A DNA stretch of 64,000 nt from Lachnospiraceae bacterium (lineage in GTDB: Bacteria; Bacillota; Clostridia; Lachnospirales; Lachnospiraceae): positions 1 to 64,000 of the forward strand of contig JAETQH010000016.1 of assembly GCA_021770785.1 (NCBI GenBank), written 5' to 3'. The first letter of the stretch is position 1. Each line of letters starts with the position of its first letter. The notes under the pieces are model-generated. The model made no database searches. It was not told the origin of the DNA and saw only the letters and a program-made list of their open reading frames with translations. The translations under genes were made by a program, and so were the position numbers. This document shows positions 6,973 through 63,810 of this stretch, in pieces.

Positions 6973-7911
6973 ATGAGTGGAGTTAGTGTATCAAAGGTAG
7001 CGCAGCTGATGGATTTGTACAATTTTCTGCCGGATTTGGAGTTGAAAGGCCACCGGATTATGGTGAGTGATGTCAACCGTCCGGCATTGCAGCTGAGCGG
7101 ATATTTTAAGCATTTCGAGCAGTCCCGTGTGCAGATCATCGGTACGGTAGAATATACCTATTTACAGCAGTTAGACAGTGAAAAGAGGGAGGAAATTTAC
7201 CGGGAATTTATGAATTATGATATTCCCGCTGTGATTTTCTGCCGTGATTTGCAGCCGGACGAAACATTTTTAGACATTGCTATGGAAAAACAGCTTCCGG
7301 TATTCGGCAGCAAAAGAGGCACTTCCGAATTTATGGCAGAGCTGATTTACTGTCTGAGTGAGCAGTTAGCACCCTGTATTACGATACACGGTGTGTTGGT
7401 GGATGTTTACGGTGAGGGGCTTCTGATTATGGGAGAAAGTGGTATCGGCAAGAGTGAGGCTGCTCTGGAGCTGGTACGCCGCGGACATCGTCTGGTTACA
7501 GATGATGTGGTTGAAATTCGTAAAATTAACGAACATATGCTGGTGGGGACATCACCGGATATTACCCGTTACTTTATCGAGCTTCGCGGCATCGGCATCA
7601 TCGATGTCAAGACCCTGTTCGGTGTAGAGTGTGTCAAGGAAAAACAGCAGATTGACCTGGTCATTAAACTGGAGGACTGGAAGAAGGACAACGAGTATGA
7701 CCGTCTTGGCTTAGAGGAAGAATACACCGAGTTTCTTGGAAACAAAGTGGTCTGTCATTCCCTGCCTATCCGTCCCGGCAGAAACTTAGCCGTTATCTGT
7801 GAGGCGGCAGCAGTCAACCACAGACAGAAAAAGATGGGCTACAACGCAGCACAGGAATTATACCGTCGTGTCCAGGAAAATCTCACCAAAAAATCAGAAG
7901 ATGACGAATAG
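6973..7911 (+). CDS. hprK: HPr kinase/phosphorylase
   Basis: HprK phosphorylates and dephosphorylates Ser46 of HPr and Crh and so sets carbon catabolite repression in Firmicutes. The protein of 312 residues has the normal length. The C-terminal kinase domain shows the P-loop GESGIGKS near residue 154, the catalytic segment HRLVTDDVVEI near 173 and the family signature IELRGIGIIDVKTLFG near 203. AGAGGAG precedes the ATG. Its substrate-type protein, a Crh-like HPr, is encoded 4 kb downstream in the same direction. It is followed within three bases by a large nested palindrome. Confidence 0.96.
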   Translation: MSGVSVSKVAQLMDLYNFLPDLELKGHRIMVSDVNRPALQLSGYFKHFEQSRVQIIGTVEYTYLQQLDSEKREEIYREFMNYDIPAVIFCRDLQPDETFLDIAMEKQLPVFGSKRGTSEFMAELIYCLSEQLAPCITIHGVLVDVYGEGLLIMGESGIGKSEAALELVRRGHRLVTDDVVEIRKINEHMLVGTSPDITRYFIELRGIGIIDVKTLFGVECVKEKQQIDLVIKLEDWKKDNEYDRLGLEEEYTEFLGNKVVCHSLPIRPGRNLAVICEAAAVNHRQKKMGYNAAQELYRRVQENLTKKSEDDE

Positions 7912-7913
7912 CA

Positions 7914-8042
7914 ATGAGCAGTGCCAAAGCAGCAAAACAGAATATCGTCGTGCTTGCACGTAAGAAATTCTGTTTTCCTGCTTTGATAGGGCGAATGCCC
8001 GCAGCGAGATGAAGCGAAGCGTAATCGAGCTACACTGCTCAT
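7914..8042 (+). repeat. nested-stem intergenic element A
   Basis: A 10-bp outer stem (7914-7923 with 8033-8042) encloses an inner stem of 18 pairs with one C-C mismatch (7925-7943 with 7967-7985). The inner stem carries a 23-nt apical loop holding the mini-hairpin CGTG-CTTG-CACG at offset 5. A small hairpin GGGC-GAAT-GCCC (7989-8000) and a purine-rich GCGA/AGCG segment follow. There is no open frame and no T-run, so it is not a simple terminator. It shares its architecture with 62874-62992. Confidence 0.85.
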
Positions 8043-8105: not shown

Positions 8106-9509
8106 ATGGAAAGAAAGAACGCATGGGACAAATACCCAGAGGGAAAGAAGAGAGAGGAAGTATTTGCATTTGCTGAGGAATACCGGGGATTTATTTCCAG
8201 ATGCAAGACGGAACGTGAATGTGTGACAGAGTTGGCGGAGAAAGCCCAAAAGGCAGGCTTCGTGGATTTAGAGGAAATAATCGAAAAAGGTACAGCCTTA
8301 AAAGCGGGTGATAAAGTATTTGCCAACAACATGGGGAAAGGGCTTGCTCTGTTTGTCATGGGAAAAAAATCCTTAGAAGAGGGAATGAACATCTTAGGGG
8401 CGCATATTGATTCCCCGAGAATGGATTTAAAACAGGATCCGTTATATGAGGATACGGATTTTGCCATGTTAGACACCCATTATTACGGCGGTATCAAGAA
8501 ATACCAGTGGGTGACGCTGCCTTTAGCGCTCCACGGCGTCATTGCAAAAAAAGACGGCTCCTTAGTACAGGTAAATATCGGGGATAAGCCGGGAGATCCG
8601 GTATTCGGCGTCAGCGATTTGCTGGTTCATTTATCCGGGGAGCAGTTAGACAAAAAAGCAGCCAAGGTGATTGAAGGGGAAAACTTAGACCTTATCATCG
8701 GCAGCATTCCCATGGAGGCAAAGGAAGAGGACAAAGAGTCAGCTAAGGAAAAGGTAAAAGCCAATATCATGAAACTCTTAGAGGCGGAATATGGTATAGA
8801 GGAAGAGGACTTCCTGTCCGCAGAAATCGAGGTGGTTCCTGCCGGGGAGGCAAGGGACTACGGTTTCGACCGCAGTATGATTATGGGGTACGGCCATGAC
8901 GACAGGGTGTGCGCTTATCCTTCCTTTATGGCAATGTTAGAAGTAAAGGAGCCGGAGGTTACCGGCGTATGCCTTTTAGTGGATAAGGAGGAAATCGGAA
9001 GCGTGGGAGCCAGCGGAATGCAGTCCCGTTTCTTTGAGAACACTGTGGCAGAGATTATGAATGCGGCAGGAGACTACTCTGAATTAAAGGTGAGACGTGC
9101 GCTGAAAAACTCCAAGGTGCTGTCCTCAGACGTGTCCGCAGCCTTTGACCCGAATTTCCCGTCTGTTATGACAAAGCGCAATGCCGCATATTTTGGAAGA
9201 GGGCTGGTATTTAATAAATACACAGGCTCCAGAGGAAAAGCAGGCTCCAACGATGCCAATGCAGAATATGTGGGAGCTTTAAGAAATATTATGGATAAGC
9301 ATGAGGTGGCATTCCAGACAGCGGAGCTTGGAAAGGTAGACCAGGGCGGTGGCGGAACCATCGCTTACATTCTGGCAAACTACGGCATGAACGTCATTGA
9401 CAGCGGCGTGGCGGTATTGAATATGCACGCACCCTGGGAGATTATCAGCAAGGTAGACTTGTATGAGGCATTCCGGGGCTATGTGGCATTTTTGGAGGAA
9501 GCTGTTTAA
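8106..9509 (+). CDS. M18 family aminopeptidase
   Basis: This is a cytosolic dinuclear-zinc aminopeptidase of family M18 (aspartyl aminopeptidase type), which trims N-terminal residues from peptides. The metal and catalytic motifs are present in order: GAHIDSPRMD (first zinc His and the base region), LLVDKEEIGSVG (catalytic Glu and zinc Glu), GHDDRVCAYP, the block DVSAAFDPNFP and a final NMHAPWEI with the last zinc His. The 467 residues match the clostridial M18 type. GGAGG precedes the start by a rather long eleven bases. It lies between hprK and murB and could be read from the hprK promoter through element A. Confidence 0.92.
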   Translation: MERKNAWDKYPEGKKREEVFAFAEEYRGFISRCKTERECVTELAEKAQKAGFVDLEEIIEKGTALKAGDKVFANNMGKGLALFVMGKKSLEEGMNILGAHIDSPRMDLKQDPLYEDTDFAMLDTHYYGGIKKYQWVTLPLALHGVIAKKDGSLVQVNIGDKPGDPVFGVSDLLVHLSGEQLDKKAAKVIEGENLDLIIGSIPMEAKEEDKESAKEKVKANIMKLLEAEYGIEEEDFLSAEIEVVPAGEARDYGFDRSMIMGYGHDDRVCAYPSFMAMLEVKEPEVTGVCLLVDKEEIGSVGASGMQSRFFENTVAEIMNAAGDYSELKVRRALKNSKVLSSDVSAAFDPNFPSVMTKRNAAYFGRGLVFNKYTGSRGKAGSNDANAEYVGALRNIMDKHEVAFQTAELGKVDQGGGGTIAYILANYGMNVIDSGVAVLNMHAPWEIISKVDLYEAFRGYVAFLEEAV

Positions 9510-48663: not shown

Positions 48664-48685
48664 GAGCAGAGGCTCTTAATTTTTG
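48651..48685 (+). terminator. terminator overlapping the carA stop
   Basis: AAAAATTAAGAGC-AGAG-GCTCTTAATTTTT: 13-bp stem and five Ts, overlapping the TAA stop. It would reduce carB expression unless overridden. Confidence 0.75.
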
Positions 48686-48835
48686 AAAGAATTTCCTGTG
48701 GGAAATTCTTTCGGTGTGTAGAAAATCTGGGGGAGCAGAGGCTCTTAATTTTTGAAAGAATTTCCTGTGGGAAATTCTTTCGGTGTGTAGAAAATCTGGG
48801 GGAGCAGAGGCTCTTAATTTTTGAAAGAATTTCGG
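48664..48835 (+). repeat. 2.5 copies of a 69-bp hairpin repeat between carA and carB
   Basis: Units begin at 48664, 48733 and 48802. The first two are identical and each holds GAGC-AGAG-GCTC plus a 12-bp stem GAAAGAATTTCC-TGTG-GGAAATTCTTTC. The third is cut short and lacks the second half of that stem. No coding potential. Confidence 0.9.
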
Positions 48836-60627: not shown

Positions 60628-60773
60628 GAAAAGTGAACCAGCCGGACGGACAGGCGCAAAGCCTGTTCTTTCGGCGAATGTTTATGTAAGCATAACCTGC
60701 ATTTGAACTGGCTGTAAAAGGTGAGGGAAAATGCAATATAAATTATGAAATAAAATTTTAGGAGGTAACCGAC

Positions 60774-61708: not shown

Positions 61709-62863
61709 ATGGATTTTGCTTTAGATAAAAAACATGAAATGGCGCGTTCTCTGTTCAGAGAATTTGCCGAGACAGAAGTAAAACCATTGGCACAGGAAGT
61801 TGACGAGACAGAGCAGTTCCCAATGGAGACAGTGAAAAAGATGCAGAAATACGGTTTCATGGGAATCCCGGTACCGAAGGAGTATGGCGGACAGGGCTGT
61901 GACCCTCTTACCTATGTCATGTGTGTAGAAGAGTTATCTAAGGTTTGCGCTACTACAGGCGTTGTTGTTTCCGCACACACCTCTCTCTGCATTGATCCGA
62001 TTTTGACTTACGGCACAGAAGAGCAGAAACAGAAATATGTAAAAGCTCTTGCAACCGGAGAGAAAATCGGTGCTTTCGCTTTAACAGAGCCGGGCGCCGG
62101 TACTGACGCTCAGGGCGCTCAGACCAAGGCTGTTTTAGACGGTGACGAGTGGGTATTAAACGGTTCTAAATGTTTCATCACCAACGGTAAAGTTGCAGAT
62201 GTTTACATTGTAATCGCAATCACAAGCATTACCGAGGACAAGAGAGGCAGAAAGAAAAAGAACTTCTCCGCATTTATCGTAGATAAGGGAGCTCCAGGCT
62301 TCTCCTTTGGTACAAAAGAGAAAAAAATGGGTATCCGTGGTTCTTCTACATACGAATTAATCTTCGAGGATTGCAGAATCCCGAAGGAGAACCTTTTAGG
62401 AACAGAGGGAAAAGGTTTCCCAATCGCAATGCACACCCTTGACGGTGGACGTATCGGTATCGCTGCGCAGGCTCTTGGTATTGCGGAGGGCGCATTAGAG
62501 CGTGCTATTGCTTACACCAAAGAGAGAAAACAGTTCGGACGTTCCATCGCACAGCAGCAGAACACACAGTTCAAATTAGCTGATATGGCAACCAGAGTAG
62601 AAGCTGCCCAGATGTTAGTTTACAAAGCTGCAATGGCAAAAGCTACTCAGAAGGTATATTCCGTAGAGGCTGCAAAAGCAAAATTATTCGCGGCAGAGAC
62701 AGCAATGGCTGTTACAACAGAGGTTGTTCAATTATTCGGTGGATACGGATATATCAGAGAGTACGACGTAGAGCGTATGATGCGTGATGCTAAGATTACA
62801 GAGATTTACGAAGGAACCAGCGAGGTTCAGAGAATGGTAATCTCCGGCGCACTTTTGAAATAG
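61709..62863 (+). CDS. bcd: butyryl-CoA dehydrogenase
   Basis: Bcd reduces crotonyl-CoA to butyryl-CoA. With EtfBA it bifurcates electrons from NADH to crotonyl-CoA and ferredoxin. The 384 residues are a normal acyl-CoA dehydrogenase: FALTEPGAGTDA for the FAD/substrate region, a middle beta domain and YEGTSEVQRMVI with the catalytic Glu near 367. ATGGAGGAA precedes the start. Codon use matches thl. It is followed by element C and then etfB. Confidence 0.97.
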   Translation: MDFALDKKHEMARSLFREFAETEVKPLAQEVDETEQFPMETVKKMQKYGFMGIPVPKEYGGQGCDPLTYVMCVEELSKVCATTGVVVSAHTSLCIDPILTYGTEEQKQKYVKALATGEKIGAFALTEPGAGTDAQGAQTKAVLDGDEWVLNGSKCFITNGKVADVYIVIAITSITEDKRGRKKKNFSAFIVDKGAPGFSFGTKEKKMGIRGSSTYELIFEDCRIPKENLLGTEGKGFPIAMHTLDGGRIGIAAQALGIAEGALERAIAYTKERKQFGRSIAQQQNTQFKLADMATRVEAAQMLVYKAAMAKATQKVYSVEAAKAKLFAAETAMAVTTEVVQLFGGYGYIREYDVERMMRDAKITEIYEGTSEVQRMVISGALLK

Positions 62864-62873
62864 CCGCAATACA

Positions 62874-62992
62874 GCGGAGCGAGAATGGCTGATAGAAATA
62901 TGGAGCCATGCTTGCATGAGCGGAATATTTCTATTAGCCATTTGAGGGCGCAACGCGCACGAAAGATGCACAGCATCTTGAGTTCGCTCCGC
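62874..62992 (+). repeat. nested-stem intergenic element C (relative of element A)
   Basis: A 9-bp outer stem (62874-62882 with 62984-62992) encloses an inner 18-pair stem with one G-U (62884-62901 with 62925-62942). That stem has a 23-nt apical loop with mini-hairpin CATG-CTTG-CATG at offset 5. Then follow a small GCGC/GCGC-type hairpin (62947-62958) and an AAGATGC-ACA-GCATCTT hairpin (62963-62979). It lies inside the bcd-etfB operon. Confidence 0.88.
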
Positions 62993-63027
62993 GTCGAACA
63001 TATAATAAATATAAGGAGTGAAAATAC

Positions 63028-63810
63028 ATGAATATCGTAGTATGTATTAAACAGGTTCCTGATACAAAGGGTGGAGTAAAATTCAATCCGGACGGAACTC
63101 TTGATAGAGCAGCAATGCTTGCTATCATGAATCCAGATGACAAAGCTGGTCTTGAAGCAGCGCTTAGAATTAAAGATGAGACAGGTGCAAAGGTTACCGT
63201 ACTTACCATGGGACTTCCAAAAGCAGATGCGATTCTCCGTGAGGCAATGGCAATGGGAGCAGACGAAGCAGTTCTTGTAACAGACAGGGTATTAGGCGGA
63301 GCTGATACATGGGCAACCTCCACCACCATCGCCGGAGCGCTTCGTAATCTGGACTATGATTTAATTATTACAGGCCGTCAGGCTATCGATGGTGATACCG
63401 CACAGGTTGGTCCGCAGATTGCAGAGCACCTTGGACTTCCGGTTATTTCCTATGCTGCTGATATCAAGGTAGAGGGAGATTCTGTTGTAGTAAAACGTCA
63501 GTACGAGGACAGATACCATGAGTTAAAAACAAAAATGCCTTGCTTGATTACAGCTCTTTCTGAGTTAAATGTTCCACGTTACATGACACCGGGTGGCATC
63601 TTTGACGCATGCGAAAAAGAAGTTACCGTTTGGGGAAGAGCAGATCTGAAGGATGTTGATGATTCTGACTTAGGTTTAAAGGGTTCACCGACTAAGATTG
63701 CAAAGGCTTCTGATAAAGTAGCAAAAGGCGCTGGTGAGAAAGTAAACCTTGACCCGACAGAGTCTGTAAACTATTTGATTGGTAAATTCAAAGAGAAACA
63801 CATTATCTAA
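63028..63810 (+). CDS. etfB: electron transfer flavoprotein, beta subunit
   Basis: EtfB, with EtfA, carries the FAD and AMP/FAD needed for electron bifurcation with Bcd. The 260 residues open with MNIVVCIKQVPDTKGGVKFN and contain the adenine-nucleotide segment LIITGRQAIDGDTAQVGPQIAEHLGLP, then KMPCLITALSELNVPRYMTP. AAGGAG is eight bases before ATG. It is 26 bases upstream of etfA. The whole set thl-hbd-bcd-etfBA is probably one transcript plus internal processing at element C. Confidence 0.96.
   Translation: MNIVVCIKQVPDTKGGVKFNPDGTLDRAAMLAIMNPDDKAGLEAALRIKDETGAKVTVLTMGLPKADAILREAMAMGADEAVLVTDRVLGGADTWATSTTIAGALRNLDYDLIITGRQAIDGDTAQVGPQIAEHLGLPVISYAADIKVEGDSVVVKRQYEDRYHELKTKMPCLITALSELNVPRYMTPGGIFDACEKEVTVWGRADLKDVDDSDLGLKGSPTKIAKASDKVAKGAGEKVNLDPTESVNYLIGKFKEKHII

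Follow-up and report, generated by a model that had tools for sequence, protein, structure and literature searches.

A compact, Clostridiales-1-related structured RNA between bcd and etfB in a Lachnospiraceae butyrate operon

In the butyrate operon of a Lachnospiraceae bacterium, a strongly folded stretch (element C) lies between bcd and etfB. It raises the question of whether a fold shared between loci serves as a signal for transcript processing or stability in core operons, among them the butyrate operon of gut bacteria. We examined it in the window (the whole 64,000-nt stretch of DNA analysed), in its own genome, which is listed with 6.93% contamination, and in the draft genomes of relatives.

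The bcd–etfB gap and the family of its element

The bcd–etfB gap is 164 nt long, lying between the bcd stop codon (TAG, 62861–62863) and the etfB start at 63028. The features discussed here, all on the + strand, are the following:

61709–62863, +, bcd (butyryl-CoA / acyl-CoA dehydrogenase); open reading frame, best NCBIfam matches to acyl-CoA dehydrogenase-type models (E 3.8e-154, under curated cut-offs)
62864–62873, +, 5′ segment CCGCAATACA between the bcd stop codon and the outer stem; comparison of left flanks
62874–62992, +, element C, compact-branch structured RNA of 119 nt; fold z-score, RF01699 match, models R1 and R2 (trained with C)
62874–62882, +, P1 outer stem, 5′ arm (GCGGAGCGA), partner 62984–62992; fold, two pairs compensated in orthologues
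62883–62901, +, P2 long stem, 5′ arm, partner 62925–62943; fold and orthologue alignment
62902–62924, +, 23-nt apical loop with mini-hairpin CATG-CTTG-CATG (62907–62918); sequence and fold
62925–62943, +, P2 long stem, 3′ arm; fold and orthologue alignment
62946–62958, +, P3 mini-hairpin region GGGCGCAACGCGC; fold
62963–62979, +, P4 hairpin AAGATGC-ACA-GCATCTT; fold and orthologue alignment
62984–62992, +, P1 outer stem, 3′ arm (TCGCTCCGC); fold
63013–63018, +, AAGGAG, presumed Shine-Dalgarno sequence of etfB, 20 nt 3′ of element C; sequence
63028–63810, +, etfB; NF040731, E 2e-95, under the curated cut-off
7914–8042, +, element A, second compact-branch copy in the window; fold, RF01699 match, R1 and R2 matches (trained with A)

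Element C is a three-hairpin fold enclosed by P1, which runs straight into P2; the P3 and P4 hairpins come after P2. The minimum free energy (MFE) of the element reaches −61.3 kcal/mol, whereas 200 dinucleotide shuffles give −33.0 ± 3.5 and none of them folds as stably (z −8.1; 0/200). A covariance model with C as one of its seven training rows sets the limits at 62874–62992 (+), and RF01699, which was trained without C, sets them at 62875–62991; the fold that a preliminary description had placed at 62874–62992 is thus borne out. Within 280 nt of context, the MFE structure swaps P1 for another pairing, with the P1 3′ arm paired differently, and the etfB start region is mostly self-paired. On reading the sequence, we saw neither a −10 box beside element C nor a T-run after it.

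Element A (MFE −58.0, z −7.1 against dinucleotide shuffles) lies between hprK (6973–7911) and an M18-type aminopeptidase gene (8106–9509), recognized by TIGR00679 and NF002600 above their cut-offs. The same description had held that A and C share one architecture, and this is supported: one model detects both, having been trained on both, and RF01699 also detects both. Its counts were right as well, namely a 23-nt apical loop and a mini-hairpin offset of 5 in each copy (C, GGAGC-CATGCTTGCATG-AGCGGA; A, ATCGT-CGTGCTTGCACG-TAAGAA), and ten unbroken apical pairs followed by G·U in C or C-C in A. Elsewhere in the window, the thl–hbd spacer (60628–60760) has an unusually stable fold (MFE −41.0, z −4.4) with no match of model R1, and at 48685–48781 a palindromic unit (GAAAGAATTTCCTGTGGGAAATTCTTTC) stands twice in direct tandem, forming a very long predicted hairpin.

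In gathering mode, Rfam returned only a tRNA from the window, with no match to RF01699 (Clostridiales-1). When short stretches were searched with an E-value threshold, RF01699 matched element C at full length (E 1.5e-6, 35.8 bits), element A (E 1.5e-4, 28.1 bits) and a further copy at C218 of the same genome (35.6 bits). All three align to model positions 1–166 of 166 and fall below the gathering cut-off of 48 bits; we therefore describe them as related to RF01699 and not as curated members. In a whole-genome search with RF01699, C and A were not among the listed matches; the control gave weak, sub-cut-off matches in 4 of 14 genomes. Among 20 compact loci outside both training sets, which we picked from 89 fetched (L219–L307), RF01699 gave five matches at E ≤ 0.054 and none above the cut-off.

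Judged by sequence and predicted fold, element C belongs to a compact branch of dispersed copies, distantly related to Clostridiales-1. The two share an outer stem, a long hairpin and two more hairpins, and the apical GCUUGC of the RF01699 long hairpin is present as TGCTTGCA in C, in A and in the compact consensus; the TGCTTGCA apex is conserved across the compact family. They differ in that compact copies have shorter P3 and P4 hairpins (120–122 versus 166 model positions), that C, A, the C218 copy and all 20 sampled copies score below the cut-off, and that the right-hand inverted end of canonical Clostridiales-1 copies was not seen at C or A. Among the open-licence literature matches listed, we found neither a functional study of Clostridiales-1 nor a published Lachnospiraceae repeat of the compact-branch kind.

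Compensatory changes and strand asymmetry

For the bcd–etfB gap we used a plain MAFFT alignment that was not fitted to structure, with rows from the window, G047, G018, G033, L139, L143 and R. hominis (L169), and took element C's own MFE structure as the reference. In these seven elements, 22 of 47 pairs have both sides changed with pairing kept. The alignment holds 42 such cells, compared with 14.8 ± 3.2 after shuffling (0/500), and sliding the partner leaves 2–7. Further pair types were not raised in this alignment (34 versus 33.7 shuffled). Relative to element C, the counts of compensated, one-sided kept and broken pairs were 8/4/3 for G018, 9/3/5 for G033, 14/3/6 for L139, 12/5/9 for L143 and 8/3/5 for L169; the G047 element is identical to C. 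Some of the orthologues fold much more weakly (MFE −35.5 in G033, −32.5 in L169 and −26.1 in L143).

The same pattern extends over the family. In model-fitted alignments, 35 of 41 pairs are doubly changed in 16 rows (156 cells versus 51.5 shuffled) and 39 of 41 in 92 rows (1,065 versus 302 ± 17). Pooled over seven orthologous junctions, 91 pairs are doubly changed and kept, 33 are kept with a one-sided change and 58 are broken; with the partner slid by −2 and +2, the doubly changed pairs number 21 and 18. Compensation in place is clear at bcd–etfB, pgk–tpiA, rplL and hprK, and the two-species junctions atpG–atpD, purF–purB and ilvB–ilvN contribute 3, 3 and 1 compensated pairs. From these alignments we conclude that the structure of element C is under selection. 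The preliminary description had reached the same view from base changes between A and C. Its conclusion stands, through orthologous and family-wide compensation; the A-versus-C argument, which compares two different loci, does not carry it alone.

That the hairpin arose by chance, or as a palindrome perfected by template switching without selection, is very improbable. Stem sequences at different loci are largely unrelated, as such an origin would give, but P1, P2 and P4 all contain doubly changed pairs, and the P1 arms compensate although they lie ~100 nt apart. Chance or template switching would also leave unexplained an excess of G·U on one strand. G·U outnumbers A·C by 13 to 3 in the bcd–etfB set (six rows, the identical G047 being dropped), by 130 to 52 over the family and by 32 to 9 over the seven orthologous junctions, these sets overlapping. 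This excess points to the sense strand as RNA. The sense fold is also more stable than the antisense fold in 7/7 bcd–etfB elements and in 81/91 elements over the family.

Spread, placement and mobility of compact copies

Within its own genome, a DNA search with element C returned C alone at E < 1, with seven other matches above E 1. As there was no second DNA-level copy, we dropped the sequence-level repeat search in favour of covariance models; nucleotide repeat searches thus miss the compact family, which is hardly visible to them because mainly its shape is conserved. Seven copies went into model R1: four came from the bcd–etfB gaps of other species, and the others were C, A and the C218 copy. 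R1 matched more copies in the own genome at C1, C18 and C109, and weakly at C34, and in the EtfB loci of other species at L188, L192 and L201. Model R2 was built from 16 matches. Of 116 related genomes, 49 (the own genome among them) had R2 matches at E ≤ 1e-4, with up to 21 per genome and at most 30 candidates scored in each. Of 299 genomes sampled across the phylum, with at most 12 candidates scored per genome, 3 had R2 matches at E ≤ 1e-6, namely the own genome and two of the same family. At C218 (L012:1–281), the 3′ portion of a compact copy, comprising P3, P4 and the P1 3′ arm, is tandemly repeated beside a different first hairpin, and similar 3′ repeats trail other compact copies, for example at L209 and L295.

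We compared the surroundings of 95 compact loci using neighbour genes from our own simple ORF picker, which flagged 16 of these loci, and 3 of 80 canonical Clostridiales-1 loci, as ORF-overlapping. The compact loci comprise 62 tandem, 19 divergent and 5 convergent positions, with 9 unassigned. Between tandem genes, 59 copies are sense and 3 antisense, most copies having been collected with a strand-aware model that favours sense pairing. Once orthologous loci with similar flanking proteins are collapsed into 71 groups, the ratio is 43:3 (p 5e-10, or 0.01 against an assumed 80% baseline). The 80 canonical loci have 39 sense and 9 antisense copies in tandem positions.

Two positions recur. The stop codon of a long frame lies ≤16 nt upstream in 36 of 93 compact loci (the 95 minus two duplicates), compared with 2–10 of 89–93 for shifted controls; by collapsed group it does so in 22 of 71 (controls 2–10). 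Element C is such a stop-mode copy, starting 10 nt past the bcd stop codon. This spacing occurs in 9 of the 36, and its CCGCAATACA segment is similar to the TCGCGATTNA found 3′ of the stop codon in other stop-mode copies. An exact TATAAT lies 8–32 nt upstream in 34 of 93 loci, mostly at −23 or −21 (permuted patterns 0–4), and in 31 of 71 groups (0–4). Among 35 TATAAT copies, an extended TGn is present in 23, and 18 show a −35 sequence within two mismatches of TTGACA (permuted ACAGTT, 3). It may be that the −10 box travelled along as the element spread, in which case such copies are not independent. Fifteen of the 93 lack both a nearby stop codon and a TATAAT, even at one mismatch. The one-mismatch count itself was dropped, as the permuted pattern was nearly equal (56 versus 54 of 93), and exact counts were used. 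Insertion tolerance could partly explain the positions of copies.

By our reading of protein ends, the stop-mode junctions include pgk–tpiA (tpiA downstream in five genomes, the pgk end read in three of those), the 3′ end of rplL (four genomes, with L10-leader matches backing rplL in three), atpG–atpD, purF–purB and ilvB–ilvN (two genomes each), and thyA–folA-like and livG–livF-like pairs. A same-strand ORF is next downstream in 80 of 95 copies, at a median of 70 nt for the 74 in range. A conserved small ORF within the element (ATGAGCAGTGCC ... TGATAG) was considered and rejected, as its frame follows from the near-constant length of P2. Of 39 copies with an ATGA start, 24 have a TGATAG-type motif in frame, 7 and 1 have it in the other frames and 7 have none; 15 of the ATGA-start frames end at 22–23 codons and 15 stop by codon 11.

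This placement bears on two further explanations. Rfam types RF01699 as Gene; sRNA, and some compact copies have their own promoter-like box, as an independent small-RNA gene might. We consider this quite improbable for element C, which begins so close behind a stop codon and has no visible −10 box or T-run, and the frequency of same-strand downstream ORFs also argues against it. A sensor or protein-binding leader, in which the TGCTTGCA apex and the P3 loop would bind a protein (or a ligand) and control the downstream gene, is unlikely, although better founded than a small-RNA gene. The apex and P3 region are conserved (1.01–1.56 bits per column) while P2 drifts (0.37–0.54), and promoter-mode copies would be at the extreme 5′ end of leaders. 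However, the downstream genes as read (tpiA, atpD, purB, ilvN, etfB and a csoR-like gene) are unrelated, which fits poorly with one metabolite and differs from the functionally related target genes by which riboswitches are recognized.

To follow the history of the element, we read the bcd–etfB gap at 30 same-genus loci, out of 52 genomes with an EtfB match. Four (G000, G047, G018 and G033) have an intact element; the other 26 have short or unrelated spacers, apart from a 3′ remnant in G052 (TTTCGAATCAATCCGC). Among 79 gaps read from the best 80 of 535 named-genome loci, whose species overlap with the same-genus set, R1 matched five at E < 1e-6 (L139, L143, which is decayed, L169, L188 and L192) and L160 weakly; all of these but L143 and L160 had trained R1. 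As most relatives are without it, element C is not essential. A comparison of related gaps had been proposed earlier as a check on the fold, and its outcome is mixed: a few gaps keep the fold with compensation, some hold decayed copies and most are without the element. On a tree of EtfB plus the end of Bcd, which reads gain and loss alike, seven element-bearing gaps (the weak L160 included) require seven changes, compared with a shuffled mean of 6.8, and are not clustered. Losses are suggested by the G052 remnant and by TCGYRAT-like starts 3′ of bcd in L127, L130, L135 and L136 (strings too short as proof).

Other peculiarities were seen at these loci. Near relatives of the window (L126, 1697–1800; L312; L313) have two strong hairpins in the bcd–etfB gap, on an unrelated spacer of 104 nt, in L179 and L180 the bcd end is seemingly tandemly duplicated in the spacer, and at L311 (G046) the EtfB match has one internal TGA.

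Clean empty sites had been named earlier as a sign of mobility. Such a site and target duplications were found for the canonical branch only; the presence of C is scattered on the tree. The canonical copy L099 of G013 has an empty counterpart in G015, with flanks 98–99% identical, and near-identical canonical copies lie in different flanks. Inverted ends with exact 6–7-nt repeats beginning AT on both sides, where the AT may be part of the element's own end, occur in 12 of 24 canonical copies; these 24 are the copies, of 80 loci, with a script-picked right end, which is doubtful in L072, L089 and L090 (the latter two at contig ends). Reading the flanks of C and A, we saw no terminal inverted repeats or target duplication. 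A canonical copy lies 6 nt after the hbd stop codon at the hbd–bcd junction of G015 (L048:2567–2723, 118.5 bits, above the cut-off), in the same butyrate operon as that of element C in a species of the same genus. End stretches of ~45–55 bp of the canonical element (L099, L098) match many further sites in G013 and G015, as if they were a solo hairpin element.

The mobility of the canonical branch, with the dispersal of compact copies and their scatter on the gene tree, is what would be expected of a selfish, MITE-like DNA element whose hairpins serve transposition and which sits where it does least harm, to no benefit of the host. We regard this as possible, and as the most serious of the competing explanations, but both the sense bias and the surplus of G·U over A·C speak for RNA, compensatory changes occur in situ among orthologues, clearly so at four junctions, and no target duplication was seen at C or A.

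A putative boundary within the butyrate mRNA

We favour, at about an even chance, the reading that element C descends from a mobile repeat and acts in cis at an mRNA boundary. A boundary element best explains the sense-strand bias, the selection acting on RNA and the frequent starts close behind a stop codon or close to where transcription begins. Element C would then act in cis, as a structured RNA between two cistrons of the butyrate mRNA. The compact family from which it comes probably spread as a mobile repeat, and C would have been kept by a few lineages while others lost it. Less firmly, it may mark an mRNA boundary. After a stop codon, the element could serve as an endonuclease entry point and/or an exonuclease block, which would give the bcd and etfBA segments of the mRNA different decay rates; at a transcript 5′ end, it could protect the leader. 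In PMC3997798, 5′-to-3′ decay by RNase J1 is given as the reason for strong 5′ stabilizers in Bacilli. As a net outcome at element C, Bcd and EtfBA would be expressed unequally, which is plausible from sequence because copies recur at atpG–atpD, pgk–tpiA and rplL.

There is a parallel in the cip-cel operon of Ruminiclostridium cellulolyticum, where intergenic stem-loops are described in PMC10311766 as cleavage signals that set stoichiometry. Both cases concern structured intercistronic spacers in a clostridial operon. They differ in that cleavage and stabilization are reported to set the cip-cel stoichiometry, whereas processing at element C is only putative, and in that the cip-cel stem-loops belong to one operon and the compact copies to a dispersed, covarying family. 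The intergenic mini-repeats BOX (pneumococcus), ERIC, NEMIS/Correia and BIME, which act on mRNA according to PMC3049150 and PMC2229807, are likewise ~100–200 bp long, dispersed and intergenic, with strongly folded transcripts; some lie in operons, with effects reported there on RNA stability or cleavage. Those families are recognized as sequence repeats, whereas the stems of compact copies have little sequence in common from one locus to another. According to PMC3049150 (Table 1), BOX and RUP are moreover enriched between convergent genes, compared with 5 of 95 convergent compact loci.

A broader reading, which we hold only tentatively, is that a once-mobile RNA family has become a portable mRNA-boundary part of the Lachnospiraceae. 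A common factor would read the TGCTTGCA apex and the P3 loop, after the stop codons of core operons (bcd–etfB, pgk–tpiA, atpG–atpD, rplL, purF–purB, ilvB–ilvN) or at leader starts, and the element would set the ratios between cistrons. In the table of Weinberg et al. 2010 (PMC2864571), the row for Clostridiales-1 is marked 'y' for RNA and 'n' for both cis-regulation and switch, which makes it a probable RNA, probably not cis-regulatory. The placement of compact copies argues for a cis role of the relatives of Clostridiales-1, and the portable-boundary reading, if true, would give Clostridiales-1-like RNAs a cis-acting role.
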